From NCBI GenBank assembly GCA_944380185.1, contig CALWGV010000048.1:1-36519 (forward strand): 36,519 nt of DNA. Direction: 5' to 3'. A program made the position numbers and the translations under genes. This document shows, piece by piece, positions 3,440 through 34,690 of the stretch. The notes beneath the pieces are model-generated. The model was not told the origin of the DNA and did not search any database. It saw only the letters and a list, made by a program, of their open reading frames with translations. The stretch's first letter is position 1, and each line of letters starts with the position of its first letter. This DNA comes from an uncultured Lachnospiraceae bacterium. GTDB lineage: Bacteria > Bacillota > Clostridia > Lachnospirales > Lachnospiraceae.

Positions 3440-3500
3440 GCCGTCTTTCTGCCGTTTCTTCTTTCTTCTCTCTTCTCTCTTCCTTCTCCATTCTTCCTCC

Positions 3501-3558
3501 TTAATACTTTGCAAACAATTAAAAAAGAATGGACTAATATTATGCAGATAGACTATCC
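3501..3558 (+). promoter_or_regulatory. Upstream region of first RR/HK operon with shared regulator box
   Basis: The box TTAATACTTTGCAAACAATT lies at 3501-3520 and the conserved GATAGACTATCC at 3547-3558. The same two elements, with the same 48-base offset from box start to the TAxACT hexamer, occur before the radical SAM gene at 7112. About 31 of the 50 bases after the box are identical between the two copies. The preceding C/T-rich flank (3475-3500) is also partly shared. TAGACT may be the -10 element, putting the box near -60 to -40, a normal place for an OmpR-family activator. The site is inferred, not shown. Confidence 0.5.
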
Positions 3559-3594
3559 CCAGCAGACAAGAAAAAGACAGAGGGGGCAGATGAT

Positions 3595-4281
3595 ATGGTC
3601 ACTATCCTAATTGTAGAAGATGAGCCAACCGTTCGGCTTTTAACGAAGGCGAAGCTTCGTTCGCTGTATAAGGTGCTGGAAGCAGAAAATGGAGAGGATG
3701 CCTTGCAGGTGCTGGATCACGAGCATGTAGACCTTCTGGTTGTGGATATTCAGATGCCAAAAATGAATGGCTATGAGCTGGTTCGGGAGCTGCGGGACTG
3801 CGGAGACAGCCGTCCGATCATCATGCTGACGGCTATGACCTCATTCGGACATAAAAAAGAAGGGTTTGCATCCGGTGTGGACGACTATATGACAAAGCCC
3901 ATCGATTATGAAGAATTGATTTGGCGGATTGAGGCCCTCCTGCGCCGCGCTAAAATCGCCAATGAAAATAAAATTGTGATTGGAAAGTTTTCTATGGAAC
4001 AAAGCACGTTTTCTGCACAGTATAACGGGAAAAATATTCCTCTTACCAATAAAGAGTTCGATCTTTTATACAAGTTTCTTTCCTATCCGGGAGTGGTATT
4101 TACGAAGCAGCAGCTGATGGATGAAATTTGGGGCTACGACTCGGATACGGAGTATGACACCATTAAGACTTATATCAGCAGACTGAGAAATAAGTTTTCC
4201 GCATGCAAAGAGTTTGAGCTGGTATCCATCCGAGGCCTTGGCTATAAAGCAATCCTTCACGAAACGGAGGAGTGCTCATGA
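3595..4281 (+). CDS. OmpR/PhoB-family response regulator
   Basis: The product is 228 residues. The receiver domain covers residues 1-120, with acidic pocket E8/D9, phospho-acceptor D51 (VVDIQMP), a Thr in MLTAM and Lys in MTKPI. A winged-helix DNA-binding domain follows at ~130-222, with the typical FDLLYKFLSYPG, IWGYDSDTEYDTIKTYISRLRNK and IRGLGYK elements. AGGGGG precedes the ATG. The gene overlaps the kinase at its 3' end by four bases (ATGA), so the two form a cognate pair. It resembles the regulator at 13822-14493 along its whole length. Its targets may include the 3501 and 7112 boxes (inference). Confidence 0.93.
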   Translation: MVTILIVEDEPTVRLLTKAKLRSLYKVLEAENGEDALQVLDHEHVDLLVVDIQMPKMNGYELVRELRDCGDSRPIIMLTAMTSFGHKKEGFASGVDDYMTKPIDYEELIWRIEALLRRAKIANENKIVIGKFSMEQSTFSAQYNGKNIPLTNKEFDLLYKFLSYPGVVFTKQQLMDEIWGYDSDTEYDTIKTYISRLRNKFSACKEFELVSIRGLGYKAILHETEECS

Positions 4282-5306
4282 AGAAAAAAACAAAATTTCA
4301 CTTGCTCCAATTTCAATGGCTTCTTCTGGTAGATGTGATTCTTGTAGTCGGCGGTGTGCTTTCTTTTGGCGCCGTTGCGCGCTTTGGGTTTCAGATGAAT
4401 GAAAGCAACGCACTGTACATGCTTGGCATGATACCATCTATGTGGATCGTTGTAAGCTTATGCACATGGATTATCCTGCGTGCAATCCGAAAAAGAATGG
4501 GCATCCTTCTGGATGGAATTCAGTCGGTTTCCAATGGGGATCTTTCGGTGCAGCTGGATACAAATGGCGCAGGAGAATATGAGGCGATTTATCGGAGCTT
4601 CAACCGTATGGTGTCGGAACTAAAAAACACAAAAGAAGAAATGGACAATTTTGTGAATGAGTTTTCTCACGAGTTTAAAACGCCGATTACCTCTATCTAT
4701 GGTTTTTCGAGGCTCCTGCTGGAGACGGGAGAGGAGATTGAAAGCCCGGAACGGATGCAGTATCTACAGGTGATTGCAGACGAGTCTCTGCGCCTTTCGG
4801 AACTGTCACAAAAAACACTGCTTCTTGCCCGCGTGGAGGCATGTGAGATTATCACGGACAAAGAGCATTATTCTTTGAGCGAGCAGCTCAAACACTGCGC
4901 GATTTTACTCTTGCCGCAGATGGATAAGAAGAAAATCACATTGGAGATGAATGTGCCGGATATCTATTATTATGGAAATCAGGAGCTTCTGGAGCATGTC
5001 TGGATTAATCTCCTGGGAAATGCCGTTAAATTTACGCCGGAACATGGCAGGATTATCATACAGGCAAAAGTCACGCCGGAGCAAATGGAAGTACAGATTG
5101 CGGATAGCGGCCCAGGGATGGAAGAAGAAATTCTGTCGCATATTTTTGAAAAATATTACCAAAGCCAGGACGGGAGGAAAAAAGGCGGCAATGGGATTGG
5201 ATTAGCGATTGCCCATCGGATTGTCACACTCAGCGGCGGGACAATAACAGCGGAAAGCCATCCCGGAAAGGGGAGTATTTTCCGGGTGGCGTTTCCCGCT
5301 GATTAG
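4278..5306 (+). CDS. Sensor histidine kinase with HAMP domain
   Basis: The product is 342 residues from the ATG at 4278, chosen because GGAGG lies seven bases upstream and the start forms an ATGA overlap with the regulator stop. An in-frame GTG at 4272 is possible. Two membrane helices (~13-35 and ~46-68) flank a very short outside loop. HAMP follows (~68-118), then HisKA with FSHEFKTPI (His131). The ATPase domain has NLLGNAVKF, DSGPGMEEE, FEKYYQ and GGNGIGLAI. With almost no extracytoplasmic domain, signal input probably comes through the membrane or a partner. The downstream lipoprotein at 6032 is the natural candidate (inference). Confidence 0.93.
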   Translation: MKKKTKFHLLQFQWLLLVDVILVVGGVLSFGAVARFGFQMNESNALYMLGMIPSMWIVVSLCTWIILRAIRKRMGILLDGIQSVSNGDLSVQLDTNGAGEYEAIYRSFNRMVSELKNTKEEMDNFVNEFSHEFKTPITSIYGFSRLLLETGEEIESPERMQYLQVIADESLRLSELSQKTLLLARVEACEIITDKEHYSLSEQLKHCAILLLPQMDKKKITLEMNVPDIYYYGNQELLEHVWINLLGNAVKFTPEHGRIIIQAKVTPEQMEVQIADSGPGMEEEILSHIFEKYYQSQDGRKKGGNGIGLAIAHRIVTLSGGTITAESHPGKGSIFRVAFPAD

Positions 5307-5327
5307 AATAAAAAATATTTTTAGATT

Positions 5328-5356
5328 TTTACTTTGCTTCAACCTTATTCTATTAC
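5328..5356 (+). promoter_or_regulatory. Candidate sigma-A promoter for the NTF2-like/lipoprotein genes
   Basis: TTTACT (5328-5333) and TATTAC (5351-5356) are separated by 17 bases, each matching the consensus at four of six positions. It lies between the kinase stop and the next gene, so the two downstream genes could be expressed apart from the kinase operon. Confidence 0.4.
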
Positions 5357-5364
5357 CTTATAGA

Positions 5365-5381
5365 CATAGCAAAGAGCTATG
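5365..5381 (+). other. Small perfect hairpin in the 5' leader
   Basis: CATAGC-AAAGA-GCTATG forms a perfect 6-bp stem with a 5-base loop just before the GGAAAGGAGA ribosome binding site. It may affect mRNA stability or translation of the following gene. It has no T-tract, so it is not a terminator. Confidence 0.35.
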
Positions 5382-5433
5382 GAAAGGAGACTCTATCATG
5401 AAATCATATGAAAATATTACAGGAGGAATTGAT

Positions 5434-6015
5434 ATGTCAGAAATGAAGGATTTTTTAAAGGACGCTTACAAGGATGCCAAAGAGGGAGCAAAGCTCGTTC
5501 ATGAGCTGAATGTGGAAGGATTGAAAGCAGCGCACACTGGCCTGGAGGACGCAGTGCAAATGGGCAGTCAGCTGCATGAAATGGTGGTCAACGAAATCAA
5601 GAATCCTACTCCCATCGAGAAGGATATCGAGAAAAAGATTGAAGAACGGCTGTTCAATGGTTTTAACAACTGGAACGGCGGATACGATGGCTGGCTGGAG
5701 TGGTGCAATACGCTCTATGAGCCGGATGCTTACTATAATGTCTACGGCAAAAGGCTGACGCTGCAGCAGTACAAGGATATGATGGGGCAATTGTTCCAGC
5801 ATTACACCATGGAACTGGGGCAGTTTGACAACATGATAATCCGGGATAACTGGTGCGCCATCCGTTATACTGTTAAGATCAAAAACCTGCATACGGGAGA
5901 GGAAATTCTCCAGAACACGATGGAATTCGTAAAGTTCAAAGAGAATCCGGAACCGATAGGCGTCCGTGTTGCAGAGGGGTGGGCGCTGTCCGACAGTCCG
6001 TTATCTGCAAAATAA
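5434..6015 (+). CDS. SnoaL/NTF2-like domain protein with helical N-terminal extension
   Basis: The product is 193 residues from the ATG at 5434, preferred because AGGAGG lies seven bases upstream. An in-frame ATG at 5398 with its own AAGGAGA would add 12 residues. The first ~70 residues are a charged, probably helical stretch (MSEMKDFLKDAYKDAKEGAK). Residues ~80-190 resemble the SnoaL/NTF2-like fold (WLEWCNTLYEPDAYYNV, LGQFDNMIIRDNWCAIRYTV, GVRVAEGWALSD). No signal peptide is seen, so it is cytoplasmic. The fold hosts cyclases, isomerases and simple ligand-binding proteins, and no substrate can be named. It sits between a sensor kinase and a lipoprotein, 16 bp before the latter. Confidence 0.75.
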   Translation: MSEMKDFLKDAYKDAKEGAKLVHELNVEGLKAAHTGLEDAVQMGSQLHEMVVNEIKNPTPIEKDIEKKIEERLFNGFNNWNGGYDGWLEWCNTLYEPDAYYNVYGKRLTLQQYKDMMGQLFQHYTMELGQFDNMIIRDNWCAIRYTVKIKNLHTGEEILQNTMEFVKFKENPEPIGVRVAEGWALSDSPLSAK

Positions 6016-6031
6016 AGGAGGGTCATTCACT

Positions 6032-7078
6032 ATGAGACGTGTAATGAAAGCAATTTGGCCCGCAGCTTTAGCAGCGGCCGTTCTGTTTGGCCTGACAGCC
6101 TGCTCCGGTAATCAGACGCAGGAAGAAAAAGTATCCGGAACATACACAGCCGGCACGGATTTAAACCGGATATCTTATGAGTTTGACGGAAAAGAAAAGG
6201 TAACGCTGCACATGCAGACATGGTTCTATGAATATGCGACCATAAGCGGAACCTATGACATTAATGACGATGGTACAGAGATTACCTTTACATTTAATTC
6301 AGAAGAGAATACCCCGCTTGGGAATATGTCATCGTATTCCGGGACGTTTCCGTATGAGTGGATGGAGGATGCCGTTTTGATTGGAAATGTGCGATATGGA
6401 AAAACGGAAGAGATTTCTGACGAGACAGCTTCGACAGCTGCCGACAGCTCTTCCTCACTGGAAGAGCCGGTAAAATTAGACGCCATATCCCTCACCCTTC
6501 CGCAGGAACCATTTGAAATCCGATATCAGGTTACGGAAGAAGGCCATGGCATTTCCAGAACATATTCGCAGGAATTGATCCGGACAGAGCAGGGAATTTA
6601 CCTCGGCTTGGGGGATTCGGATGAAAAGTATGTGTTTGAACGATTGGAAAGCGGAAAATATCTGATTTATCGCTATGACCCTATTGCCGGCCAGTATTTG
6701 GGGATCAACCGTTCGGAAGCTGTGCAGAATCAGATTGACAATGGCGTAATGACAGAGGATATGATAGCGGTTGACCAAAATGTTGTGAATGGTTACATGG
6801 TCCGAATCACGGAGTTTTTTGATTACTATGAAAAGGTGAAAAGCTCTCTCCGGTATCAGGGAGAGGAAACCGTGGGAGAAACGGTCTGCCAGAAATACAC
6901 GGCGTCCTATGTTGTCGGAGAGACGGAGCGTGAGATGGCATTCTGGATTGATCCGGAAACAGGGCTTTGCATGAAAGGCATTTATTATTACGAGGCGCTG
7001 GATGGGAGCATTTATACAAAGGCTATCCTCTGTGACCAGATTGCGGCGGAAAATATTTCGCTTCCGGAGTATAAATGA
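6032..7078 (+). CDS. Two-domain lipoprotein, paralogue of the 15691 lipoprotein
   Basis: The product is 348 residues, starting at 6032 because AAAGGAGGG precedes this ATG and the signal peptide begins there. A lipoprotein signal ends at LTAC (Cys24), so the protein is anchored outside the membrane. Residues ~35-130 form a beta-rich domain (GTYTAGTD, ISGTYDINDDGTEITFTF). After a Ser/Thr/Glu linker, residues ~150-348 match the C-terminal domain of the lipoprotein at 15691: YVFExLExGKY, NGVMTxDM, DPETGLCMK and a terminal LPEYK are shared. It sits downstream of one RR/HK pair as its paralogue follows another, suggesting an extracellular sensing or buffering role for the kinase (inference). I cannot name the domain. 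Confidence 0.82.
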   Translation: MRRVMKAIWPAALAAAVLFGLTACSGNQTQEEKVSGTYTAGTDLNRISYEFDGKEKVTLHMQTWFYEYATISGTYDINDDGTEITFTFNSEENTPLGNMSSYSGTFPYEWMEDAVLIGNVRYGKTEEISDETASTAADSSSSLEEPVKLDAISLTLPQEPFEIRYQVTEEGHGISRTYSQELIRTEQGIYLGLGDSDEKYVFERLESGKYLIYRYDPIAGQYLGINRSEAVQNQIDNGVMTEDMIAVDQNVVNGYMVRITEFFDYYEKVKSSLRYQGEETVGETVCQKYTASYVVGETEREMAFWIDPETGLCMKGIYYYEALDGSIYTKAILCDQIAAENISLPEYK

Positions 7079-7111
7079 TTTTGCCGGCCCTTCATTCATA
7101 GTTCTTCATTC

Positions 7112-7170
7112 TTAATACTACAAAAACAATTTTCAATTAATTGGCTAACACGGTACCGATAAACTATCCT
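7112..7170 (+). promoter_or_regulatory. Upstream region of radical SAM operon, near-copy of the 3501 region
   Basis: The box TTAATACTACAAAAACAATT is at 7112-7131 and GATAAACTATCC at 7158-7169, with the TAAACT hexamer starting 48 bases after the box start, exactly as at 3501. A third element, GGCTAACACGG, resembles the box half-site, and the palindrome CGGTACCG lies at 7151-7158. The match to the regulator's own promoter suggests that the radical SAM/epimerase genes belong to the same regulon (inference). Confidence 0.5.
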
Positions 7171-7226
7171 CATCCGATAAAGGAAACAAACAAACTGCTG
7201 TACGAAAGAGAAAGGACAACAAAACT

Positions 7227-8621
7227 ATGGCATTAAAAGAAAACGTAGAAGCATTTGCAGTAAAACAGGCGCTTGCCTATCTGGACAAGGATCCGGAGAA
7301 CAACCTGCCGAAACTTTTGGACTGGTTTGACCGCTTTGACCGCAAAGATACCCTGAAGGTGCAGAGGGATGTGATCCGTCAGGTGGTAATGGATAAAGAC
7401 AATAACTGGCACAAGCTGGTGATGAGCCTGTGGACCGATATCGATCCCGGCGTGCGGAACCGGGCTTTTGAGAATCTGATTATCAACGGTTCCCTGCTGG
7501 GCTATCAGAAGCAGCAGGCCAACAAGGAGAAATATAACTGCAACATCCCCTGGGCGATTCTCTTAGATCCCACCAGCGCCTGCAACCTGAAATGTACCGG
7601 CTGCTGGGCGGCGGAGTACGGCAACCATATGAACCTGACCTATGAGGAGATGGACGACATTGTAAAGCAGGGCGTCGAGCTGGGCACCTATGTCTATCTC
7701 TTCACCGGGGGAGAGCCGATGGTACGCAAGAAAGACATCATTCGCCTGTGCGAGGCCCATCCGGACTGTGTCTTTTCCGCCTTTACCAACGGCACGCTGA
7801 TCGACGAGGCCTTTGCCGCTGAGATGCTGCGGGTGCAGAACTTTGTGCCGGCCATCAGCATCGAGGGCTTCGAGGAGGCGACGGACTCCCGGCGGGGGGA
7901 CGGCACTTATCAGAAGATCATCCGTGCGATGCATATCCTGCGGGAGAAGAAGCTGCCCTTTGGCATTTCCTGCTGCTATACCTCTGCCAATGCGGAGATC
8001 ATCGGCAGCGAGGCTTATTTTGACCAGATGATCGAGATGGGAGCCAAGTTCGCCTGGTTCTTTACCTATATGCCGGTGGGGAAGGCCGCAGTGCCGGAGC
8101 TGATGGTTACCGCCCAGCAAAGAGAAATGATGTATCACAAGATTCGGGAGTACCGTCAGACAAAGCCGATTTTCACGGTGGATTTCTGGAATGATGGAGA
8201 ATTTGTGGGCGGCTGCGTGGCCGGAGGACGCAGCTACTGCCATATCAACGCCAACGGGGATATCGAGCCCTGCGCCTTCATTCACTATTCCGATTCCAAT
8301 ATCCGTGAGAAAACTCTGCTGGAGGCCTATCGCTCGCCCCTGTTTATGGGCTATCACGACAACCAGCCCTGGAATGAAAATATGCTGCGGCCCTGCCCGG
8401 TCCTGGACAATCCGGGAAGGCTGACGGAGATCGTGGAGAAGAGCCACGCAAAGAGCACGGACTATCAGAACCTGGAGACGGCGAAGGAGTTCTCCGATAA
8501 ATGCGTGGAAACCGCCAAAAAGTGGGCTCCGGTGGCAGACCGGCTCTGGAGAGAATCCCACGGAGGCTGCGCCGCCTGCGGCGGCTGCAGTGCGGCGCAG
8601 GAAGAGAGGTCTGTCTTATGA
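7227..8621 (+). CDS. Radical SAM enzyme with auxiliary cysteines and CxxCGGC tail
   Basis: The product is 464 residues. An N-terminal ~105-residue helical region precedes the radical SAM core. The core has the cluster motif CNLKCTGC (Cys119, 123, 126), binding a 4Fe-4S cluster and SAM, then the SAM-binding GGEP. Further cysteines occur in VGGCVAGGRSYC and IEPCAFIHY, plus a later RPCPVLDNP, resembling a SPASM-type auxiliary cluster region. The protein ends with a Cys-rich tail, CAACGGC. It overlaps the epimerase gene by ATGA, so the two are made together. Such enzymes modify peptides, lipids or sugars by radical chemistry; the substrate is not evident. The pairing with an SDR epimerase is loosely like HpnH/HpnA of hopanoid pathways, but no other hopanoid gene is here. 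Confidence 0.88.
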   Translation: MALKENVEAFAVKQALAYLDKDPENNLPKLLDWFDRFDRKDTLKVQRDVIRQVVMDKDNNWHKLVMSLWTDIDPGVRNRAFENLIINGSLLGYQKQQANKEKYNCNIPWAILLDPTSACNLKCTGCWAAEYGNHMNLTYEEMDDIVKQGVELGTYVYLFTGGEPMVRKKDIIRLCEAHPDCVFSAFTNGTLIDEAFAAEMLRVQNFVPAISIEGFEEATDSRRGDGTYQKIIRAMHILREKKLPFGISCCYTSANAEIIGSEAYFDQMIEMGAKFAWFFTYMPVGKAAVPELMVTAQQREMMYHKIREYRQTKPIFTVDFWNDGEFVGGCVAGGRSYCHINANGDIEPCAFIHYSDSNIREKTLLEAYRSPLFMGYHDNQPWNENMLRPCPVLDNPGRLTEIVEKSHAKSTDYQNLETAKEFSDKCVETAKKWAPVADRLWRESHGGCAACGGCSAAQEERSVL

Positions 8622-9682
8622 AAAATAGAGTTTATCTGGTAACAGGAGCGGCAGGTTTTCTGGGAAGCCATGTATGCGATGAACTGCTTGCGCGGGGAGA
8701 CCGTGTGAGAGCTCTGGTCCTGCCCGGGGACAAGGCGATGAAATATATTCCCGCTCAGGTGGAAATCGTGGAGGGAGATCTGTGCGATGTGGAATCGCTG
8801 GAGCGATTTTTCCGTGTTTCACCGACCGAGGAATCGATTGTGATCCACTGCGCCAGCATGGTGACGACCAACGCGGAGTATAATCAAAAACTGATGGATG
8901 TAAACGTGGGCGGAACGAAAAACATGATTGACAAATGTCTGGAGCATCCTGAGTGTCAGAAAATGGTGTATGTAAGCTCCACCGGGGCCATTCCGGAAGC
9001 ACCGAAAGGTACGGTAATCCGGGAGGTAGAGCAGTTTACCCCCATTGATGAGGAGCGGCAGGTGGGCTGCTATTCCCAGTCCAAAGCCATGGCCACACAA
9101 GAGGTACTGGACGCCTGCCGTACGCGGGGGCTAAAGGCCTGCGTCGTCCATCCCAGCGGTATTCTGGGGCCCAAGGATTATGCTATAGGCGAGACCACCG
9201 GTACGGTGATTAAAATCATGAATGGCAAGATGCCGGTGGGCATGGGCGGTTCCTTTAATCTCTGTGATGTGCGCGATCTGGCCTACGGATGTGTGGCCGC
9301 GGCGGATAAGGGACGTATCGGGGAGTGCTATATTCTGGGAAACAAAGAGGTGACGCTCAAGGAAGTGTGTCAGATGCTGCATGATGCCAGCGGATGCAAG
9401 ACGCCTTATTTTTACGTGCCCATCAAGATGGCTTATGTGCTGGCGGCCCAAATGGAAAAGAAGGCCAAAAAGACCGGTGAAAAACCGATGATGACAAAGT
9501 TTGCCGTCTACAATTTGGCCCGGAACAATCAATTCGACTCTTCCAAGGCAGAACGGGAGCTGGGATATCATACGAGACCCTATGAGGAAACTCTGCGGGA
9601 TGAGGCGCAGTGGCTTCTGAAGGAAGGATATATAGAGATAGTGGCTGCGGCCCAGCCCATGCCGGGAGGCGCAGGCAGGTAA
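8618..9682 (+). CDS. NAD(P)-dependent epimerase/dehydratase (extended SDR)
   Basis: The product is 354 residues. The start at 8618 gives a product that opens directly on the Rossmann fold and overlaps the radical SAM stop by ATGA. The cofactor loop GAAGFLG (residues 10-16) and the catalytic pair Tyr152/Lys156 (CYSQSKA) are intact, with Ser120-121 in the VSST position. The substrate half (~180-330) is unlike sugar-nucleotide epimerases I can name and resembles dihydroflavonol reductase/HpnA-type members. It probably oxidises, reduces or epimerises the substrate or product of the coupled radical SAM enzyme. Residues ~295-310 are Lys-rich (MEKKAKKTGEK). Confidence 0.87.
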   Translation: MKNRVYLVTGAAGFLGSHVCDELLARGDRVRALVLPGDKAMKYIPAQVEIVEGDLCDVESLERFFRVSPTEESIVIHCASMVTTNAEYNQKLMDVNVGGTKNMIDKCLEHPECQKMVYVSSTGAIPEAPKGTVIREVEQFTPIDEERQVGCYSQSKAMATQEVLDACRTRGLKACVVHPSGILGPKDYAIGETTGTVIKIMNGKMPVGMGGSFNLCDVRDLAYGCVAAADKGRIGECYILGNKEVTLKEVCQMLHDASGCKTPYFYVPIKMAYVLAAQMEKKAKKTGEKPMMTKFAVYNLARNNQFDSSKAERELGYHTRPYEETLRDEAQWLLKEGYIEIVAAAQPMPGGAGR

Positions 9683-9787
9683 GATCGGTTTGGAATGAAG
9701 TGCGAGGGGCGCAGTTATCCTGGCCGGAAGGCAGGTATGACAAAAAGATAGAGGCCGGCTCAGGCCAGGGTGCGGAGGTGTGTAAAA

Positions 9788-11416
9788 ATGGGCAATATAA
9801 TCACCTACCTGAAGTGGCGGGGTGACCTGGACTTTCGAGAGAGACCATTTTGCGAGGCGGATAACCTGGTTCTCAGTGCCCTGGTCTATCTGGATTTCAC
9901 CGGGATCGTTCCGGAAACAGCCGAGGAAGGGGCCGTCACGGTAAAGGAAGCTGCCGGGAAATACGTTCGCCGGCAGCAGGAGGAGGGCCAAAGCCCCACA
10001 TCCTTCGACCCGGTCCTGGCACAGATGGCGGCAGGCAGGAGATACCGGGATGCGCAGCTGTCCTGTTACAGGCAGAAGACGGAGGAAACGATACAGACAC
10101 AGTTTGCCGCCCTGCAGATTGGGCTGGGAGACGGCACCTTTTATCTGGCTTTTCGGGGAACCGACGACTCCATTGTGGGATGGAGGGAGGATTTCAGCAT
10201 CAGTTACCGAACGGTGCCGGCTCAGCAGGCGGCTGTAGAATATCTGAGGCAGACCATGACGAGGGAAGGCCGCGTCTATCGGCTGGGCGGCCACTCCAAG
10301 GGAGGCAATCTGGCCATGTATGCCGCGGCCATGTGCGGAGCGGAGCTGGCGGATCGGCTTATCGCGGTCTATAACAACGATGGCCCCGGTATCTGCCCCG
10401 ACATGCTGGATGCCCAGGGCTATGATCGGATACGGGATCGGCTGGTGCGGATCGTCCCCCAGTTTTCCGTGATCGGCATGCTCTTTGAGCCGGACGTGCC
10501 TCCGCTTATTGTGGCCAGCAGTGCGCGCGGCCTGATGCAGCACCGGATCCTGACCTGGGAGATTGACGGCGACGGGCTGGTCAGGGTCGGCGAGCTGGCG
10601 GAAGAGAGCCGGTTTTACAACCGTATCTTTGACACCTGGATTGAGTCGGCGGATATGGAGCAAAGGGAGGTCTTCACCCGGGATTTCTTTGATGCCCTGG
10701 AGGCGGGCGGAGCTTCTACCATTCCCCAGGTGGCCGGCGGCGGGTTGGATGGGTTTGGCACCATCCTTTTGTCCATTGTGGAATCCGAGAGCAGGACAAA
10801 GATCGTAATCGGCAAGTTTGTCCGTTCCTTTGCAAAGCAGCTGCGGCGGATCAGCCTGCGGGATTTTTTTAGGTCGCGGGAGTGGCTTCGGGGCGGATTG
10901 ACGATCCTGGCCGGGCTTGTGTTTTTTCTTGCGCCGGAGTTCGCCGTTCAGAGTATCGGCACAGCGGTGGCAGTTGTCCTCTTTGGCTGGGGCGTCAAAA
11001 AACTGCTGGATTGTGCCATGGAGGACAATGACAGGCCCCGACAGAAGAAGAGAAGGCTCATTGTCTATATTGTTTTTCTGTCTCTGATGGTATTTCTCTC
11101 CACCCACGGCGGGATCCTGCTGGTCTCCGGCAGCATGCTGCTGGGCGTGCTGTTTTTGGCGGCTTCTTTGCAGACGTTTCGCCGGATATTCCAGGAGGGC
11201 GGCGGCAAAATCAAAAAGCTGGGAATGACGCTGGCGTCCATATTGCTGTTTTTTATGGGGATTGTGATGCTCGTCACCCCGGAGAGGGCCTTCGCCCAGA
11301 AGATGCTGGCTGCCGGCTCCTTTTTAATCCTCTATGGCTTTGGACGGATACTGCTGCGGCTCTGGCAGAGCGGGGAGAGGGAAGTAGGAAGAGCGAAAGA
11401 GGATATTTGCCACTAA
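9788..11416 (+). CDS. Mbeg1-like (DUF2974) alpha/beta-hydrolase fused to a C-terminal membrane domain
   Basis: The product is 542 residues from the ATG at 9788, which has GGAGG nine bases upstream. The N-terminal ~350 residues fit the Mbeg1-like/DUF2974 family: FREADN-like opening (FRERPFCEADNLVLSALVYLDF), AFRGTDDSIVGWREDF and the nucleophile elbow GGHSKGGNLAMYAA (Ser170). From ~365 onward there are about six hydrophobic helices arranged as two similar blocks (RGGLTILAGLVFFLAPEFA and later KLGMTLASILLFFMGIVMLVTPERA), like the HdeD/DUF308 repeat type. The protein would be a membrane-tethered cytoplasmic lipase- or esterase-like enzyme. No substrate is known to me. The 105 bp upstream holds no obvious gene. 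Confidence 0.8.
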   Translation: MGNIITYLKWRGDLDFRERPFCEADNLVLSALVYLDFTGIVPETAEEGAVTVKEAAGKYVRRQQEEGQSPTSFDPVLAQMAAGRRYRDAQLSCYRQKTEETIQTQFAALQIGLGDGTFYLAFRGTDDSIVGWREDFSISYRTVPAQQAAVEYLRQTMTREGRVYRLGGHSKGGNLAMYAAAMCGAELADRLIAVYNNDGPGICPDMLDAQGYDRIRDRLVRIVPQFSVIGMLFEPDVPPLIVASSARGLMQHRILTWEIDGDGLVRVGELAEESRFYNRIFDTWIESADMEQREVFTRDFFDALEAGGASTIPQVAGGGLDGFGTILLSIVESESRTKIVIGKFVRSFAKQLRRISLRDFFRSREWLRGGLTILAGLVFFLAPEFAVQSIGTAVAVVLFGWGVKKLLDCAMEDNDRPRQKKRRLIVYIVFLSLMVFLSTHGGILLVSGSMLLGVLFLAASLQTFRRIFQEGGGKIKKLGMTLASILLFFMGIVMLVTPERAFAQKMLAAGSFLILYGFGRILLRLWQSGEREVGRAKEDICH

Positions 11417-11431
11417 AAAACAGGAGTAAAA

Positions 11432-12256
11432 ATGGGAGAAAAGATGGAAGACAAGCAGGAACAAAAACAAGAACAAGAAAAAGAACGGCGGGCAGAACAG
11501 CGGCTGGAACGTCAGTCACAGGAACTGATGAGTCTGCATCAGGGTGTGCAGGCGGTCATGCAGGATTCCATGCGGGCCTTGTCTCAGATGGTAGAGTACC
11601 AGGATCTGATGCTTCTGTATGATTCCGCCATCAAGGTGGTCAATACCAAGCTGGACATCATCAATGCGGCCTACCAGACACGCTACCACCGCAATCCAAT
11701 CCATTCCATCAGCTCCCGCCGCAAGAAAATGACCAGTATCGTGCAGAAGCTGTACCGTATGGGTGAGGCCGTCACGGCGGAGAATATCGAGCGCTGCCTG
11801 CATGATGTGGCCGGCGTGCGGGTTATCTGCTCCTACCTGGATGATGTGTACGAGGTGGCCCAGGCCATTGCCAAGCAGGACGATATCTGTCTGGTCCGGC
11901 AGAAGGATTATATCAGCAATCCCAAGCGCAACGGCTATCGGAGCCTTCATCTGATCATCCGCGTACCCGTATCCTTTGCCGAGCAGACCAGGCAGATGGA
12001 GGTGGAAATACAGATTCGCACCATCGCCATGGATTTCTGGGCCAGCCTGGAGCATCAGCTGAAATATAAAAAGGAACTGGGGCCGGAGGAAGAGCAGCAG
12101 ATCATCGAGAGGCTGCGGATCTGCGCGGAGACCATTGCCCAGACCGATGTTCAGATGCTGGCGATCCGCAGGGATATTGACAAGGAAAAGGGAGACATCA
12201 CGGAGATGGAAGAGATCGCGGAGAGGCTTTCCCATATCGATATTTCTTTTTCCTGA
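11432..12256 (+). CDS. Small alarmone synthetase (RelA/SpoT-domain GTP pyrophosphokinase)
   Basis: The product is 274 residues. A charged Gln/Glu/Lys N-terminus (1-30) precedes a RelA/SpoT synthetase domain at ~65-215: RRKKMTSIVQKL, HDVAGVRVICSYLDDVY, KDYISNPKRNGYRSLHLI and VEIQIRTIAMDFWASLEHQLKYKK. These are hallmark motifs of YjbM/YwaC-type synthetases that transfer pyrophosphate from ATP to GDP or GTP. There is no HD hydrolase domain, TGS or ACT, so it can make (p)ppGpp but not degrade it. CAGGAG precedes the ATG, 15 bp after the previous stop. Its operon position suggests alarmone output linked to envelope signals (inference). Confidence 0.92.
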   Translation: MGEKMEDKQEQKQEQEKERRAEQRLERQSQELMSLHQGVQAVMQDSMRALSQMVEYQDLMLLYDSAIKVVNTKLDIINAAYQTRYHRNPIHSISSRRKKMTSIVQKLYRMGEAVTAENIERCLHDVAGVRVICSYLDDVYEVAQAIAKQDDICLVRQKDYISNPKRNGYRSLHLIIRVPVSFAEQTRQMEVEIQIRTIAMDFWASLEHQLKYKKELGPEEEQQIIERLRICAETIAQTDVQMLAIRRDIDKEKGDITEMEEIAERLSHIDISFS

Positions 12257-12310
12257 GCAGGCTGCCGCTCTAAACGGAAAGGTGCAAAAACGGAGAGTAG
12301 GAGGAAAACA

Positions 12311-13465
12311 ATGAAGCCCGGAGTGAAAAAATATCTGCCCCTTGGCGTATGCCTGTTCCTGGTTTATCTGGCCTGCAGTATCTGGTCGGCGGCGTCGGGG
12401 CTGCTGCGGCTGGCAGCGGATGCTTCCCTGCCTTTTATCCTGGGAGCGGTCATTGCCTACGCAGTCAATATCCTGATGGTCTTCTATCAGAGGCGCATAG
12501 GAAGAAGACGGAAGAGGCCAATGGGAAAGGCGGGGCGTATGGCCTGTATGCTGGGAGCTTATCTCACCATTTTTCTGCTGATTCTGGCGGTTGTCTGGCT
12601 GGTGGTCCCGCAGTTTATCGCCTGCATCCGGACCTTGGTCCGTCAGGCCCCGGAGGCGGTGGAGCAGCTGCTTTCCGTGCCGGTTATCGAGGAAAACCTG
12701 CCGGCGGACATGAGCTCCTCTCTGTCCGGCATGGACTGGGGAGGCCTGGTCACACAGCTTCTGGAGCTTTTAAAGACAGGGGGAAGCGGCCTGTTAGCCA
12801 ATGTGCAGGCAGTCGTATCCACTGTGTTTTCCAGCATGGTAACTTGGCTGTTTTCGCTGATTTTTTCCTTCTATCTGCTCTGGGGCAAAGAAAAGCTGAA
12901 GGGGCAATGCGGCCGCGTGCTGCGGGCGTACCTTCGCCCGCAGTGGAGGGAGAAGCTCTTGGGCGGTCTGGCCCTGTTTGACTCCTGCTTCCATAAATAT
13001 ATAGTGGGGCAGTGTACGGAGGCCGTAATCCTGGGGCTTTTGTGTACGCTGGGAATGCTGCTGTTTCGTTTTCCCTACGCGGCTATGATCGGCGCTCTGG
13101 TGGGGGTGCTGGCCCTGATTCCCGTGGCCGGCGCCTATATCGGGGCAGCGGTGGGTGCTTTCATGATCTTAAGCGTATCCCCTGTTCAGGCCCTGCTCTT
13201 TTTGGTCTTTATCGTCGTACTGCAGCAGCTGGAGGGCAATCTGATTTATCCCCGCGTAGTCGGCTCTTCGGTGGGGCTGCCGGGGATCTGGGTGCTCGCC
13301 ACCGTTACAGTCTGCGGAGGACTTTTCGGGATTGCCGGAATGCTGGTGGGTGTCCCGGTGGCAGCGGCCCTGTATCAGGCCCTGGCACAGGATGTGCGCC
13401 GGCGGGAGGCCGCCGGGCAGGAGGAGACTGTACGAGAGGAAGCTGAGCAAGAGGAAACTGAGTAA
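12311..13465 (+). CDS. AI-2E/PerM-family membrane protein
   Basis: The product is 384 residues with AGGAGG seven bases before the ATG. About eight membrane helices are arranged as in PF01594: an N-terminal pair, a large soluble insert (~115-170), then a C-terminal block with LLCTLGMLLFRFPYAAMIGALVGVLALIPVAGAYIGA and the family signature QQLEGNLIYPRVVGSSVGLPGIW. Members act as exporters or ion-coupled antiporters; the name does not prove AI-2 transport. The last ~14 residues are an acidic tail encoded by a 15-bp tandem repeat, one copy of which supplies the stop codon (see repeat). Confidence 0.9.
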   Translation: MKPGVKKYLPLGVCLFLVYLACSIWSAASGLLRLAADASLPFILGAVIAYAVNILMVFYQRRIGRRRKRPMGKAGRMACMLGAYLTIFLLILAVVWLVVPQFIACIRTLVRQAPEAVEQLLSVPVIEENLPADMSSSLSGMDWGGLVTQLLELLKTGGSGLLANVQAVVSTVFSSMVTWLFSLIFSFYLLWGKEKLKGQCGRVLRAYLRPQWREKLLGGLALFDSCFHKYIVGQCTEAVILGLLCTLGMLLFRFPYAAMIGALVGVLALIPVAGAYIGAAVGAFMILSVSPVQALLFLVFIVVLQQLEGNLIYPRVVGSSVGLPGIWVLATVTVCGGLFGIAGMLVGVPVAAALYQALAQDVRRREAAGQEETVREEAEQEETE

Positions 13466-13486
13466 GAGGAATCTGAGTAAGAGGAA
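13421..13486 (+). repeat. 15-bp tandem repeat crossing the stop codon of the AI-2E gene
   Basis: Units start at 13421, 13436, 13451 and 13466, with a partial fifth at 13481: GAGGAGACTGTACGA, GAGGAAGCTGAGCAA, GAGGAAACTGAGTAA, GAGGAATCTGAGTAA, GAGGAA. In frame they encode EETVR, EEAEQ, EETE-stop and EESE-stop. A single CAA-to-TAA change in the third unit makes the present stop, so the fourth copy is now untranslated. Confidence 0.85.
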
Positions 13487-13518
13487 GGTTTTTCTGACGG
13501 GAAGGAGGCAAGTAAAAC

Positions 13519-13740
13519 ATGAATAGAGAATTTGTAGAAAAAACGCTGCGGCTGGGCGCGTATGCCCTGGGAGGGGCCGCGCTGGCATCAGTGATCATAG
13601 GACTGCTGATGCTGCATATTCCTCAGCTGATCGGACGAAGTCTGGCTTACGGGGCGGGGGTCATTCTCCTGCTGTATGGTGTGGGAACGGTGGCAAACCT
13701 TATTTGGACTTGGATAAAAACCAGGCGTCAGGACAGATAA
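13519..13740 (+). CDS. Small two-TM membrane protein
   Basis: The product is 73 residues with a strong AAGGAGG upstream of the ATG. There are two hydrophobic stretches, ~11-33 (LGAYALGGAALASVIIGLLML) and ~38-60 (LAYGAGVILLLYGVGTVANLIW), with a basic tail (KTRRQDR). No family is recognised. It is 53 bp after the permease gene, probably the last gene of that operon, before the promoter region of the second regulator. Confidence 0.65.
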   Translation: MNREFVEKTLRLGAYALGGAALASVIIGLLMLHIPQLIGRSLAYGAGVILLLYGVGTVANLIWTWIKTRRQDR

Positions 13741-13753
13741 AAGATTGGACGGA

Positions 13754-13782
13754 TTAACACTTCCCTAACAAAAATGTGTTAA
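13754..13782 (+). promoter_or_regulatory. Candidate regulator box upstream of second RR/HK pair
   Basis: TTAACACTTCCCTAACAAAA (13754-13773) matches the TTAAyACT...AACAA box seen at 3501 and 7112. It contains two direct half-sites (TTAACAC and CTAACAA) 11 bp apart, as expected for OmpR-family dimers. TTAACAC also forms a perfect inverted repeat with GTGTTAA at 13776-13782 (15-base spacer). It lies 40 bp before the regulator start, so autoregulation is possible (inference). Confidence 0.45.
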
Positions 13783-13821
13783 GCTTTCGGCAAATTCAGA
13801 AAGAGGAGGAATCAGCGCATT

Positions 13822-14493
13822 ATGATACATATTCTTGTGGTGGAGGACGACAGGGATCTCAATCAGACGGTGTGCCGTCATTTGAATGCGCGGGATTATC
13901 GGGCTGTAGGCGTCTTGCGGGCCGCAGAGGCCTTTGATCAGCTCTATGCCGGCCATTTCGACCTGATTATCTCGGATATTATGATGCCGGAGATGGACGG
14001 CTTTGAATTTGCCAGGCTTTTGCGGCAGCAGGATGCGGATATACCGATCCTGTTTATGACGGCTCGCGACGACTATACAGCCAAGGAGAGAGGATACCGT
14101 CTGGGGATTGACGACTATATGGTCAAGCCGGTCAATCTGGATGAGCTGGTTCTCCATGTCGAGGCCCTTCTGCGGCGGGCTCATATTGCTGCGGAGAAAA
14201 AGCTGACGGTGGGAAATCTGGTTCTGGACGAGGACGAGGTAAGCGCCACAGTGGACGGGGAGCCGATCAACCTGACGTTGCGGGAATTCCAGATTCTGTT
14301 TAAGCTTCTTTCCTATCCGAAGCGCACCTTCACCCGCAGTCAGCTGCTGGACGAATTCTCCGGCGTCGAGACGGAGAGCGGGCTTCGCACGGTGGATGTC
14401 CATATCACTAACCTGCGGGCAAAGCTGGCCGGCTGCGACGCCTTTAAAATCGTGACGGTGCGGGGGCTGGGCTATAAGGCGGTGATACAATGA
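13822..14493 (+). CDS. OmpR/PhoB-family response regulator (second copy)
   Basis: The product is 223 residues. The receiver domain has E8/D9/D10, phospho-acceptor D52 (IISDIMMPEMDG), MTARDD and MVKPVN. The DNA-binding domain has LTLREFQILFKLLSYPKR, SQLLDEF, RTVDVHITNLRAKL and VRGLGYKAVI. GAGGAGGA lies upstream of the ATG and the 3' end overlaps the kinase by ATGA. It is clearly related to the regulator at 3595, sharing the REF/KEF...SYP and RGLGYKA elements. The similarity of DNA-binding regions fits the similar boxes upstream of both operons. Confidence 0.93.
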   Translation: MIHILVVEDDRDLNQTVCRHLNARDYRAVGVLRAAEAFDQLYAGHFDLIISDIMMPEMDGFEFARLLRQQDADIPILFMTARDDYTAKERGYRLGIDDYMVKPVNLDELVLHVEALLRRAHIAAEKKLTVGNLVLDEDEVSATVDGEPINLTLREFQILFKLLSYPKRTFTRSQLLDEFSGVETESGLRTVDVHITNLRAKLAGCDAFKIVTVRGLGYKAVIQ

Positions 14494-15551
14494 GGAGTTT
14501 GATGAAGAGGGATACGCGAATCAACGCAAAGAACATGACGCTGCGCAATTACATGATGATCTTTCTTTCCATGCTGCTTTTTTGCGGAACCTACGCCGGC
14601 CTGTATTTTCTCCAGGTCCGTGTCACCGATACGATCTATATCATCCTGTCGATGCTTACCTACATCGTGGTGACAAGCGCCGTTACCTGCATAGTCTTTG
14701 CCTTCTTCCGGCGTAAATTCCTGATGCGGCCGGTCTACCGCCTCTGCGAGGCAGCCCAGAAGGTAGCTCAGGGGGATTTCTCCATCCGCCTTGCGCCTAT
14801 GAGGAAAGACGGGAAAAAGGATGAGTTCGAGGTGCTTTTCGAGGATTTCAATACCATGGCGGAGGAGCTGGCCAGTACGGAGATGCTGAAAAATGACTTC
14901 GTATCCAATGTGTCCCATGAGCTGAAAACACCTCTGGCAGTCATCCAAAACTATGCCACTATTCTGCAGAGCGATGATTTGTCTGAGGAGGAACGCAGGG
15001 ATTATTCCAAAAGAATCGGGGAGGCGTCACAACGTCTCTCCGTTTTGGTGACTAATATTTTGCAGATCAGCCGCCTGGAAAATCAGAAGACCCGTCCGGC
15101 TATCCGGCCCTTTAATCTCAGCGAGGCTCTGTGCCGCTGTATCTTGAATTATGATGCGCAGCTGGAGGAGAAAGATATTCAGGTAGATACGCAGCTGGAT
15201 CAGGATCTGATTGTAAACAGCGACGAAAATTTGTTGGATATGGTGTGGAACAATCTGATCTCCAACGCGGTCAAATTCACGCCCGAAGGCGGCCGGATAG
15301 AAATCCTTCTTCATCGGGACAAAGACGAAGCTGTGGTTCAGGTCAGAGACAATGGCTGCGGAATAGATGAAAAATCCGTCCGCCATATTTTTGAGAAATT
15401 CTACCAGGCGGATACCTCCCATGCCACCCAGGGCAACGGTCTGGGTCTGGCTCTGGCCAGCCAGATCATCGGATTGCTGGACGGCCGGATTTGTGTGGAG
15501 AGCAAACCCCAAGAGGGAGCAGTATTTACGGTGAGACTAAAAATTAGTTGA
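14490..15551 (+). CDS. Sensor histidine kinase with HAMP domain (second copy)
   Basis: The product is 353 residues from ATG 14490. An in-frame ATG at 14502 with AGGAG just upstream is an alternative. There are two membrane helices (~18-42 and ~47-73), a minimal outside loop, HAMP (~73-130), HisKA with VSHELKTPL (His143), and an ATPase domain with WNNLISNAVKFTPEGG, DNGCGID, FEKFYQAD and GNGLGLALA. Its C-terminal half is very close to the truncated kinase at 1-495. Like the kinase at 4278 it lacks a periplasmic-type sensor domain, so input may come from the lipoprotein or the 27-residue membrane peptide downstream (inference). Confidence 0.93.
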   Translation: MRSLMKRDTRINAKNMTLRNYMMIFLSMLLFCGTYAGLYFLQVRVTDTIYIILSMLTYIVVTSAVTCIVFAFFRRKFLMRPVYRLCEAAQKVAQGDFSIRLAPMRKDGKKDEFEVLFEDFNTMAEELASTEMLKNDFVSNVSHELKTPLAVIQNYATILQSDDLSEEERRDYSKRIGEASQRLSVLVTNILQISRLENQKTRPAIRPFNLSEALCRCILNYDAQLEEKDIQVDTQLDQDLIVNSDENLLDMVWNNLISNAVKFTPEGGRIEILLHRDKDEAVVQVRDNGCGIDEKSVRHIFEKFYQADTSHATQGNGLGLALASQIIGLLDGRICVESKPQEGAVFTVRLKIS

Positions 15552-15578
15552 AGCTTTGATTTGGAGCGCCTGCCCGAT

Positions 15579-15629
15579 TTAATCATTCGTTAGCAAATCC
15601 TTGACATTTGAAAAATAACCGTACGGTAA
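15579..15629 (+). promoter_or_regulatory. Candidate promoter of the second lipoprotein gene, with degenerate regulator box
   Basis: TTAATCATTCGTTAGCAAAT (15579-15598) partly matches the box at 13754. It is followed directly by a consensus -35, TTGACA (15601-15606). The -10 is poor: TACGGT and CGGTAA are the candidates at 15-17 bases, fitting an activator-dependent promoter. The 10-bp palindrome ACCGTACGGT overlaps this -10 area. Confidence 0.42.
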
Positions 15630-15690
15630 GCTGGATGTGCAACCGATAAGCTGATGAATCAATTTGACAATATAGATCGGAGGTACGGCA

Positions 15691-16569
15691 ATGAAGAAAG
15701 AAGCTATCGTGATATTAAGTGTATTGACTCTATCCGCACTGTTGGCAGGCTGTCAGGCCCGTGGTTCGGGCTCCGCGGAGGGTGGCTCCGAACAGACTGT
15801 CACGCGGGGGACGGACGAAGAAGGTGTAATCATCGTGACCTCGCAGGGCGAAACGATGCAGAAGCAGGAGAGCTGCGATCAGACGGAGGATTCGTTCATA
15901 CCAGCGCAGGCAGCCACAGAGGATTCAACAAATAATTCAGAAATGCAGAATAGTCAGAGCGCATCTGACGGCCTGTCCGCTCTCCAGCTGAATCTGCCAA
16001 AACAGTATACAATTCAGTACCGGGTGAGCAATTCAGAGGACTGGGAGGACGGCTATACCCAGACCCTTACCCGGACCGCGGAAGGGTATTATATGGAATT
16101 TGGCGATTCGGGCGAGCGATATGTCTTTGAATGTCTGGAAAATGGGAAATATATACAGTACGAATACGATGAGGAGCAGGGGACATATGAGCCTACCATG
16201 CTGACGGAGGATATTCAGAAGCTGATCGACGCAGGCGTGATGACGCTTGATATGGTATCGCTGGATTCCAATGTGGTTTCGGGATATGCGTCCCGCATGA
16301 CCGTGATTTTTGATTTCTACAGCTCCTTTGCACCCTCTATGACACTGGCCGGTGAGGAGGAAATAGAAGGGATATCCTGCCTGCACTATACCGTTTCTTC
16401 TGAGGAAATGTGGGGACGGCAGACGACGGACGTTTGGGCAGATCCGGAGACGGGCCTGTGCATGAAGGCGGTCTATCTCTACCAGCCGCCGGAGGGCAGC
16501 GTATCGGTCCGTCAGCTGGAGTGCTCACAGTTCGAGACAGAGAACGTGACGCTGCCGGAATACCGATAG
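15691..16569 (+). CDS. Lipoprotein, paralogue of the 6032 lipoprotein
   Basis: The product is 292 residues with GGAGG before the ATG. The lipoprotein signal ends in LLAGC (Cys21). A ~75-residue low-complexity Ser/Gln/Glu linker follows. Residues ~95-292 match the C-terminal domain of the 6032 protein: GDSGERYVFECLENGKY, DAGVMTLDMVSLDSNVVSGY, DPETGLCMK and a terminal LPEYR. It lacks the extra N-terminal beta domain of its paralogue. It stands 139 bp after the kinase stop with its own candidate promoter. I know no function for the domain; an extracytoplasmic accessory to the kinase is inferred from repeated synteny. Confidence 0.82.
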   Translation: MKKEAIVILSVLTLSALLAGCQARGSGSAEGGSEQTVTRGTDEEGVIIVTSQGETMQKQESCDQTEDSFIPAQAATEDSTNNSEMQNSQSASDGLSALQLNLPKQYTIQYRVSNSEDWEDGYTQTLTRTAEGYYMEFGDSGERYVFECLENGKYIQYEYDEEQGTYEPTMLTEDIQKLIDAGVMTLDMVSLDSNVVSGYASRMTVIFDFYSSFAPSMTLAGEEEIEGISCLHYTVSSEEMWGRQTTDVWADPETGLCMKAVYLYQPPEGSVSVRQLECSQFETENVTLPEYR

Positions 16570-16582
16570 GGAGGTGATGAAT

Positions 16583-16666
16583 ATGGTTTATATCGGCCTG
16601 ATCCTGGGAACGGCGGCAGTACTGCTTGGATTTTTTGGATATTGTGTCAAATCACTCACTGCGTAG
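16583..16666 (+). CDS. 27-residue single-TM membrane peptide
   Basis: GGGAGGTGATGA gives a strong ribosome binding site before ATG 16583, and the frame ends at TAG 16664-16666. The peptide MVYIGLILGTAAVLLGFFGY plus a short CVKSLTA tail is almost entirely a membrane helix with a GxxxxxxxG-like face. It lies 13 bp after the lipoprotein stop, so it is co-transcribed. Its last 15 bp overlap the 3' end of the convergent AraC gene. The size and position suggest a small membrane regulator of the kinase or transport machinery (inference). Confidence 0.5.
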   Translation: MVYIGLILGTAAVLLGFFGYCVKSLTA

Positions 16667-22353: not shown

Positions 22354-22371
22354 AAATATAAGGAGGGAACT

Positions 22372-26003: not shown

Positions 26004-26033
26004 TCACTTGGAGAGGAGAAGGAGGAGAACGGG

Positions 26034-32311: not shown

Positions 32312-32315
32312 AAAA

Positions 32316-33137
32316 ATGGATAAAATTATGCAGCTGCCCGCGATGAAGGGATTTATCAGAATGTGCGACGACGGATGGCTCCAGGGCTGGCATGAGAGAA
32401 ACGGCGGCAACTTAAGCTACCGCATGACCCGGGAGGAGGCAGCGCTGTGCGCGGATGAATTCTGCGAGCCGGGAGAGTGGACGGCCATAGGTCTGCCGGT
32501 GCGCAGCCTGGCCGGAGAGTATTTTATTGTCACCGGCAGCGGCAAATATTTCCGCAACGTAAAATCTGACCCCCTTCACACCATCGGAATTGTGGAGATC
32601 AATGGGCAGGGAGACGCCTGGCGCATCGTCTGGGGACTGGAGGAGGGCGGCAGGCCTACGTCGGAGCTGCCCACGCATCTGATGAATCACAGCGTCCGCA
32701 AGGAGGCTACCGGCGGAGCGAACCGGGTCATATATCATTGCCACGCCACCAATGTCATCGCCCTGACCTATGTGCTGCCTCTGACGGACCGGGATTTCAG
32801 CCGGGCTCTGTGGCAGAGCGCGACAGAGTGCCCGGTGGTGTTTCCGGAGGGCGTAGGCGTCTGCCCCTGGATGGTGCCGGGAGGCACGCAGATTGCTGAG
32901 GCTACCAGTCGGCAGATGGAGAAATATCAGGCGGTGATCTGGGCGCAGCACGGCCTCTTTGTTTCGGGTCCGGATTACGATACCGCCTTTGGCCTGGCCC
33001 ATACCATCGAGAAAAGCGCCGAGATATGCCGGCTGGTCATGGCCGCCGGACAACCGGTGCGTCAGACGATCACGGACGAAAATCTGCGGGCCATCGCCCG
33101 GGATTTCGGGGTGGAGCTAAACGAGGAATTCCTGTAA
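32316..33137 (+). CDS. rhaD: L-rhamnulose-1-phosphate aldolase
   Basis: The product is 273 residues from ATG 32316. An in-frame GTG at 32298, about 12 bases after AAGGAGG, is an alternative. Class II aldolase/AraD-family features: WHERNGGNLSYR, VTGSGKYFRNV, SELPTHLMNH, the zinc-binding YHCHATN and WAQHGLF. It cleaves L-rhamnulose-1-phosphate to DHAP and L-lactaldehyde. It completes the rhamnose pathway with the two preceding genes. No lactaldehyde reductase gene is present in the window. Confidence 0.92.
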   Translation: MDKIMQLPAMKGFIRMCDDGWLQGWHERNGGNLSYRMTREEAALCADEFCEPGEWTAIGLPVRSLAGEYFIVTGSGKYFRNVKSDPLHTIGIVEINGQGDAWRIVWGLEEGGRPTSELPTHLMNHSVRKEATGGANRVIYHCHATNVIALTYVLPLTDRDFSRALWQSATECPVVFPEGVGVCPWMVPGGTQIAEATSRQMEKYQAVIWAQHGLFVSGPDYDTAFGLAHTIEKSAEICRLVMAAGQPVRQTITDENLRAIARDFGVELNEEFL

Positions 33138-33200
33138 TAACCGGACGCTTCCGCCAATGGGTGCTGCAAAGTTACGAAATAGGAAAGGGAGGAGACAAAT

Positions 33201-34676: not shown

Positions 34677-34690
34677 AGAGGAGGAGCGGT

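Follow-up and report, generated by a model that had tools for sequence, protein, structure and literature searches.

Predicted LolA-fold lipoproteins downstream of two separately derived short-loop histidine kinases in a Lachnospiraceae genome, and their possible role as accessory sensors

The stretch of DNA analyzed here (the window) comprises 36,519 nucleotides of contig CALWGV010000048.1 (contig C48; assembly GCA_944380185.1), from the 2.9-Mb, 84% complete genome of an uncultured Lachnospiraceae bacterium. It contains two gene cassettes on the + strand, each encoding a response regulator (RR), a histidine kinase (HK), and a lipoprotein (LIP). A sequence-only reading of the same DNA had placed them at 3595-7078 and 13822-16666, and both placements hold: the gene order is RR1-HK1-(205-residue protein)-LIP1 in cassette 1 and RR2-HK2-LIP2-small membrane peptide in cassette 2. 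Genomes and loci used for comparison carry G and L numbers, respectively. The genes of the two cassettes are the following.

3595-4281, + strand: RR1, OmpR/PhoB-type response regulator (Pfam Response_reg and Trans_reg_C)
4272-5306, + strand: HK1, short-loop histidine kinase with two transmembrane segments (HAMP, HisKA, HATPase_c)
5398-6015, + strand: 205-residue probable cytoplasmic protein, weakly NTF2/SnoaL-like (SnoaL_2 at an expectation value (E) of 0.14 only)
6032-7078, + strand: LIP1, with signal sequence and lipobox, a DUF5640-like N-terminal piece, and a C-terminal domain of predicted LolA fold (6458-7075)
13822-14493, + strand: RR2, OmpR/PhoB-type response regulator (Response_reg, Trans_reg_C; tree)
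14490-15551, + strand: HK2, short-loop histidine kinase with two transmembrane segments (HAMP, HisKA, HATPase_c; hydropathy; tree)
15691-16569, + strand: LIP2, with signal sequence and lipobox, a low-complexity linker, and a C-terminal domain of predicted LolA fold (15955-16566)
16583-16666, + strand: open reading frame (ORF) for a 27-residue peptide with a single transmembrane segment, preceded by a ribosome-binding-site-like sequence

The start of LIP1 was set at 6032 on the basis of its ribosome-binding site and signal sequence, and the longer mechanical ORF start was not used. HK2 and LIP2 are separated by a gap of 139 bases. The 27-residue peptide had no Pfam match. The 205-residue protein was present in one of 61 genomes, its own, and the label "NTF2-like" given to it earlier is weak, the SnoaL_2 match lying below the cut-off.

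LIP1 and LIP2 both passed the lipobox test, and alignment of their C-terminal domains revealed 84 identical residues out of 200 (42%, E 2e-51), a similarity far beyond chance that bears out the shared domain noticed earlier. The N-terminal piece of LIP1 resembled DUF5640 below the cut-off (E 0.00087 for the piece alone) and was modeled poorly. For the C-terminal domain, no Pfam or NCBIfam model scored above its cut-off; hints below it came from DUF2092 (E 0.032) and DUF3108 (E 0.07), which we take to be members of the LolA/LolB/LprG/RseB superfamily. With these hints as the only matches, the domain does not pass the curated-family sequence test for that superfamily, and sequence searches against the PDB gave nothing convincing. 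A model of the LIP2 domain built from three sequences (m764523619a2b) reached a predicted local distance difference test score (pLDDT) of 86. Searching it against the PDB with Foldseek retrieved 27 chains at E <= 0.001 (range 6e-6 to 9e-4), 23 of which were LolA from several species, RseB, LprF, LprG, and LppX, and the other four a lipoprotein-sorting domain, EPDR1, VioE, and DUF1849. The LIP1 model (m1865d76b9902) was good in the C-terminal domain only and mostly matched the LolA/LprG/RseB superfamily; its top match was a DUF1329 protein, and PNGases were also found. The LIP2 model shows the half-barrel of antiparallel sheet and the LIP1 model agrees, so that in predicted structure the C-terminal domain is a LolA/LprG/RseB half-barrel. 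The sequence-only reading had described a three-part system that it could not match to a described one; through this predicted fold, the domain can now be placed. The fold is known for binding lipids or lipoproteins and for regulating partner proteins, as with MucB (PMC7400510) and with GerS and CwlD (PMC8496864).

Judged from sequence, the domain is a new, rare, and lineage-restricted family without a Pfam or NCBIfam model. A first scan of genome contigs found no relative, and profile searches of 195, 397, 392, 397, and 236 genomes (overlapping sets) found one clear and one distant relative outside the window. The clear relative (G110, E 6e-22) comes from an uncultured Lachnospiraceae bacterium and is the same protein as that of L010 (CALWCS010000039.1); it has a signal sequence but, by eye, no lipobox, and its gene is preceded by a nagB-like and a nagA-like gene (names by eye). 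The distant relative (G557) scored 21.8 bits in the genome search; when the ORFs of the fetched loci were searched with a profile made without it, its score was 31.4 bits (E 4e-9). It is a lipoprotein encoded divergently from a radical SAM gene. No relative of the family was found in viral contigs, none of LIP1 in plasmids, and none of LIP2 in phages. None of nineteen weak matches (16-20 bits) was counted as a member. They are mainly unrelated proteins or short frames, and four of them were judged LolA-like by eye (L014, a 282-residue lipoprotein of G391 with 19.3 bits; L015; L102; L103). None of these four has an RR-HK pair within three genes. Four genes downstream of the G311 protein (L015) come an RR and a large kinase; the G733 protein (L102) is encoded behind sigma-factor-like genes, and about 1.7 kb from it there is an isolated weak RR match; and in an 8-kb stretch of G745, no two-component genes were found near the LolA-like protein. 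By eye, LolA-like lipoproteins of Clostridia away from kinases were seen at 5438-6286 of L107 (G391) and 1160-1948 of L109 (G745). A 597-residue LolA-like protein (by eye) encoded after sigma-factor-like genes at 4854-6647 of L110 (G733) recalls RseB-type anti-sigma systems.

Hydropathy plots of HK1 and HK2 showed two hydrophobic segments each, about 5-15 residues apart, with the loop at approximately residues 37-48 in HK1 and 43-48 in HK2. The plots support the earlier statement that these kinases almost lack an extracytoplasmic sensor. Intramembrane-sensing histidine kinases are characterized by two transmembrane helices less than about 25 residues apart, and by hydropathy alone both kinases are of this type. 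With so few outer residues and two transmembrane segments, they must receive their signal inside the membrane or by way of a partner.

The same reading had taken the cassettes for a duplicated module, and here the trees disagree. RR1 and RR2 are 39% identical, and HK1 and HK2 32%. The kinase tree had 44 rows (two from the window, 15 from its own genome, and 27 from 26 of the 27 relatives' loci); it excluded a third window kinase cut by the contig end (HK3, whose near relatives in L046 and L047 were included) and kinases shorter than 300 residues (L068) or below 75 bits. HK1 was sister to a kinase of G040 (support 100/100), and HK2 fell inside a 15-member clade (100/100), where the genes after the remaining kinases mostly encode other membrane proteins. 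The regulator tree (37 rows: two from the window, 10 from its own genome, and 25 relatives) agreed, with RR1 sister to the G040 regulator (100/99). HK1 and HK2 were joined in 0% of 200 bootstrap trees, as were RR1 and RR2, and all four have closer relatives in other genomes, which lack the lipoprotein. In six other genomes of the genus, some of them incomplete (72-98%), no orthologs of HK1 or HK2 were found at thresholds of E 1e-60 and 1e-55 with at most 21 candidates scored per genome; the matches were HK3-type or more distant kinases. An old duplication, after which kinases and regulators were replaced or diverged, would account for the similar order RR-HK-(x)-lipoprotein in both cassettes and for the 42% identity of the lipoprotein domains. 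However, in view of the bootstrap trees and the closer relatives without lipoprotein, we consider it very improbable, and module duplication was rejected as largely refuted. The lipoprotein alone is common to the two cassettes and, since HK1 and HK2 are not sisters, one rare lipoprotein family has become attached to two different RR-HK pairs.

LIP2 adjoins HK2 and LIP1 lies one gene after HK1, both downstream and on the same strand as the kinase. Among 27 loci with the nearest HK1 or HK2 relatives, several of which end at a contig end, none had a lipobox protein within three called genes. In the window's own genome, 20 of the 30 kinase-type matches outside the window were fetched and 18 scored; in two of these 18, a lipobox protein was encoded no more than three called genes from the kinase; one of the two proteins lies three genes off on the other strand, and the other is a doubtful one of 109 residues. 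Lipobox neighbors are unusual beside such kinases.

We tentatively favor the reading that a LolA-fold lipoprotein has been attached twice to short-loop kinases and acts there as an accessory sensor partner or as a feedback arm. The lipoprotein would be anchored at the outer face of the membrane, where its half-barrel could take up a lipid or another amphiphile. Loaded or empty, it might then touch the transmembrane and short-loop region of the kinase and set its activity, and a regulator box before the lipoprotein gene would turn lipoprotein production into a feedback loop. LprF-KdpD, QseG-QseE, and MucB, compared below, are precedents for single steps of this mechanism; MucB, for example, lets go of its partner on lipid binding. 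The earlier proposal that the lipoprotein is the missing sensor gains from the domain alignment, the kinases without outer domain, a predicted fold that suits a ligand-binding extracytoplasmic partner, and the LprF and QseG precedents, with the sensor step inferred; it loses the duplicated module and the idea of a domain that cannot be placed.

In other genomes, an AACA-N7-AACA direct repeat with an 11-base-pair (bp) period precedes nine of 13 RR2-clade regulators (L044-L056), and three of the remaining four loci have matrix matches before the operon or further upstream. Matrices trained on these nine sites, which were chosen by eye and include none from the window, point to the following candidate boxes.

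13754-13770, + strand: predicted RR2 box TTAACACTTCCCTAACA before RR2 (rank 1 of 73,006 positions)
15579-15606, + strand: weaker candidate RR box or boxes before LIP2, TTAATCATTCG TTAGCAAATCC TTGACA, with an 11-bp period

The box at 13754 scored 14.7 of 27.3 possible bits with the 17-bp matrix and 18.5 with the half-site matrix, the latter similar to the sites of the relatives, and RR2 is probably autoregulated through this predicted 11-bp-period box. The site at 15590 ranked third of 73,006 positions with the 17-bp matrix (13.0 bits), and shuffling of the HK2-LIP2 gap gave p 0.007, which is suggestive of control of LIP2 by an RR box. The gap between HK1 and the gene at 5398 held only a rank-14 match (5309, 9.6 bits) and no pattern match. 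The box pattern matched the window's own genome eight times, against four for a reversed control; it was designed with the window sites in view, so this count lends no independent support to the LIP2 box. Two of the eight matches begin 68 and 82 bases before RR3 and a nearby gene for a 122-residue protein.

A candidate box within the 139-base gap would also suit a lipoprotein that is the output of the system and not its sensor, namely an envelope lipid-carrier or protection protein of the LprG/LppX type switched on by the neighboring regulator. LprG and LppX are among the best fold matches, and the relatives in G110 and G557 are not beside kinases, as an output protein would allow; however, the LIP2 box is weak by the half-site matrix, and cassette 1 offers nothing beyond the rank-14 match in the gap after HK1. 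We regard this explanation as possible, if doubtful, and it ranks closely behind the accessory partner that we prefer.

Several observations weigh against an accessory sensor or feedback arm. The 15590 site falls outside the best eight of the two-half-site scan and is eighth in the three-half-site scan. With 14.7 and 13.0 bits, the window boxes compare with 23-25 bits for untrained sites in L044, L053, and L055, and L043, an 8.5-kb locus whose regulator lacks an upstream box, reaches 14.8 bits elsewhere with the 17-bp matrix. No promoter-like site was found on the + strand of the HK2-LIP2 gap, nor before RR1 or RR2. TM-scores to solved structures are low (approximately 0.2-0.45), so that the LolA/LprG/RseB match is a claim about fold. 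In G110, four genes, two of them feoA- and feoB-like by eye, separate the family member from the nearest kinase gene, and on the 4.5-kb contig of G557, no two-component gene was found. The sequence-only reading had stated that it would fall if the domain occurred mostly away from two-component genes; the four known members divide evenly, the two in the window adjoining an RR-HK pair and the two outside it not, and a role as a clip-on sensor is to that extent unproven. Finally, as the cassettes lie only 9 kb apart, a lipoprotein gene copied locally could by chance have been placed behind a second kinase.

Chance is the core of the remaining explanation, in which the lipoproteins have an unrelated envelope role, such as GerS-like enzyme activation, and owe their position to local rearrangement of genes where two-component genes are abundant. 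There are three kinases within 16 kb, and the short distance between the cassettes and the position of both outside relatives suit this explanation, as does the case of GerS, a Firmicute lipoprotein of LolA-like fold reported to regulate an amidase (PMC8496864). Cassette 1, moreover, looks inserted, given its low GC content (45-46% in RR1, HK1, the 205-residue gene, and LIP1 vs 50-59% in the other genes tabulated) and an imperfect direct repeat of 103 columns that flanks it. However, lipoproteins are rare beside these kinases, and both copies stand downstream on the same strand; we consider coincidence quite unlikely. The repeat and the gene that follows it are located as follows.

3479-3579, + strand: left repeat copy, before RR1, with box-like TTAATACTTTGCAAACA at 3501
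7090-7192, + strand: right repeat copy, between LIP1 and the radical SAM gene, with box-like TTAATACTACAAAAACA at 7112
7227-8621, + strand: radical SAM protein (PF04055)

The repeat copies are identical in 70 of 103 columns (score 72; the highest of 2000 dinucleotide shuffles scored 47), and both keep a box-like TTAATA-N5-(C/A)AAACA. This arrangement fits either an insertion of cassette 1 before the radical SAM gene or duplication of a promoter, by which this gene would come under RR1. Upstream of its two nearest relatives among the loci compared, no significant match to the repeat was seen (p 0.06 to 0.61).

A relative of the radical SAM gene with 78% identity lies beside the G557 lipoprotein. 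A link between the two families was rejected, as none of the best 20 of 35 other radical SAM neighborhoods contained a family member. In L071 (G032) and L070 (G557), ORFs for peptides of 25-29 residues with a single transmembrane segment and ribosome-binding-site-like sequences precede the two nearest radical SAM relatives among the loci compared; the same script found no such ORFs at 18 other radical SAM loci (L074 left out) or in the window.

The left end of the window carries the third kinase and its neighbors.

1-495, + strand: HK3, kinase fragment (C-terminal part) of the HK2 clade, truncated at the contig end
482-1396, + strand: 304-residue membrane protein found after HK3-type kinases (L044-L049 and L052 have a homolog after the kinase)
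1389-1817, + strand: 142-residue protein with two transmembrane segments found after HK3-type kinases (a homolog was called in six of seven such loci, not in L046)

The kinase of L046 (G004, same genus) shares 99% identity with HK3, and the gene order there is RR, HK, 304-residue protein. A regulator of the kind matching HK3 is located on contig C2 of the window's own genome. A protein of a 128-residue type follows in L047 and five other HK3-type loci. In L050, L051, and L053-L056, which belong to part of the HK2 clade, the kinase is followed by a GYEYK-type protein of about 180 residues with two hydrophobic segments (four sequences inspected). In this part of the clade, the GYEYK-type protein replaces the 304- and 128-residue proteins, so that the position after the kinase is a variable accessory slot. 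Further downstream in the window, a row of sugar-catabolism genes (by eye glycosidases, sugar kinases, and isomerases) occupies 20014-36289 on the + strand, and two called ORFs overlap at 28339-28664, which may reflect a frame problem or a wrong start.

For Firmicutes, the route by which signals reach kinases lacking an outer sensor domain is still an open question. If the LolA-fold lipoproteins are indeed partners of HK1 and HK2, the window offers a small, testable case of an existing lipid-binding fold coupled to unrelated kinases, in parallel with LprF-KdpD in mycobacteria and RseB in Gram-negative bacteria. A broader proposal, that the domain is a transferable outer sensor in Lachnospiraceae, joined independently to two unrelated RR-HK pairs to form three-part lipid- or envelope-sensing systems, seems rather unlikely to us. 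Even if the sensor role is wrong, there is a LolA-fold lipoprotein family outside the Pfam and NCBIfam models, as well as a box through which a two-component system present in many genomes of the bacterial family is likely to regulate itself.

Among the open-access papers listed by our searches, none was seen to describe the pairing of a LolA-fold lipoprotein with a Firmicute kinase. Among known systems, LprF and LprJ of Mycobacterium tuberculosis are reported to interact with the kinase KdpD, with a suggested function as sensors or in ligand binding (PMC3610689). In the fold search with the LIP2 domain, LprF ranked second (4qa8), with 10% sequence identity in the fold alignment. KdpD carries an input region of its own that includes a Usp sub-domain (PMC3610689), whereas HK1 and HK2 lack the KdpD and Usp input families and show only HAMP, HisKA, and HATPase above the Pfam cut-off. 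RseB/MucB share the half-barrel fold predicted here and are described as lipid-responsive extracytoplasmic regulators (PMC7400510). However, they act on an anti-sigma factor, while the window lipoproteins neighbor a kinase, and they have a second C-terminal domain, whereas the LolA-fold domain of LIP1 and LIP2 ends at the C terminus. GerS of Clostridioides difficile is likewise a Firmicute lipoprotein of LolA-like fold that binds and activates a partner (PMC8496864), but this partner is the amidase CwlD, the context is sporulation, and GerS is absent from the 50 Foldseek matches listed for the LIP2 domain. In the QseG-QseE pair, an accessory lipoprotein binds and activates a histidine kinase encoded in the same gene cluster (PMC12691602). 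QseG, however, is an outer-membrane lipoprotein of Gram-negative bacteria, and it is likened to LIP1 and LIP2 by role, not by sequence or structure. Intramembrane-sensing kinases of Firmicutes, of the LiaS, BceS, and SaeS type, are often partnered by an accessory membrane protein. They resemble HK1 and HK2 in their two transmembrane segments and very short outer loop, but the partner proposed here is a LolA-fold lipoprotein, whereas the relatives of HK2 carry membrane proteins.

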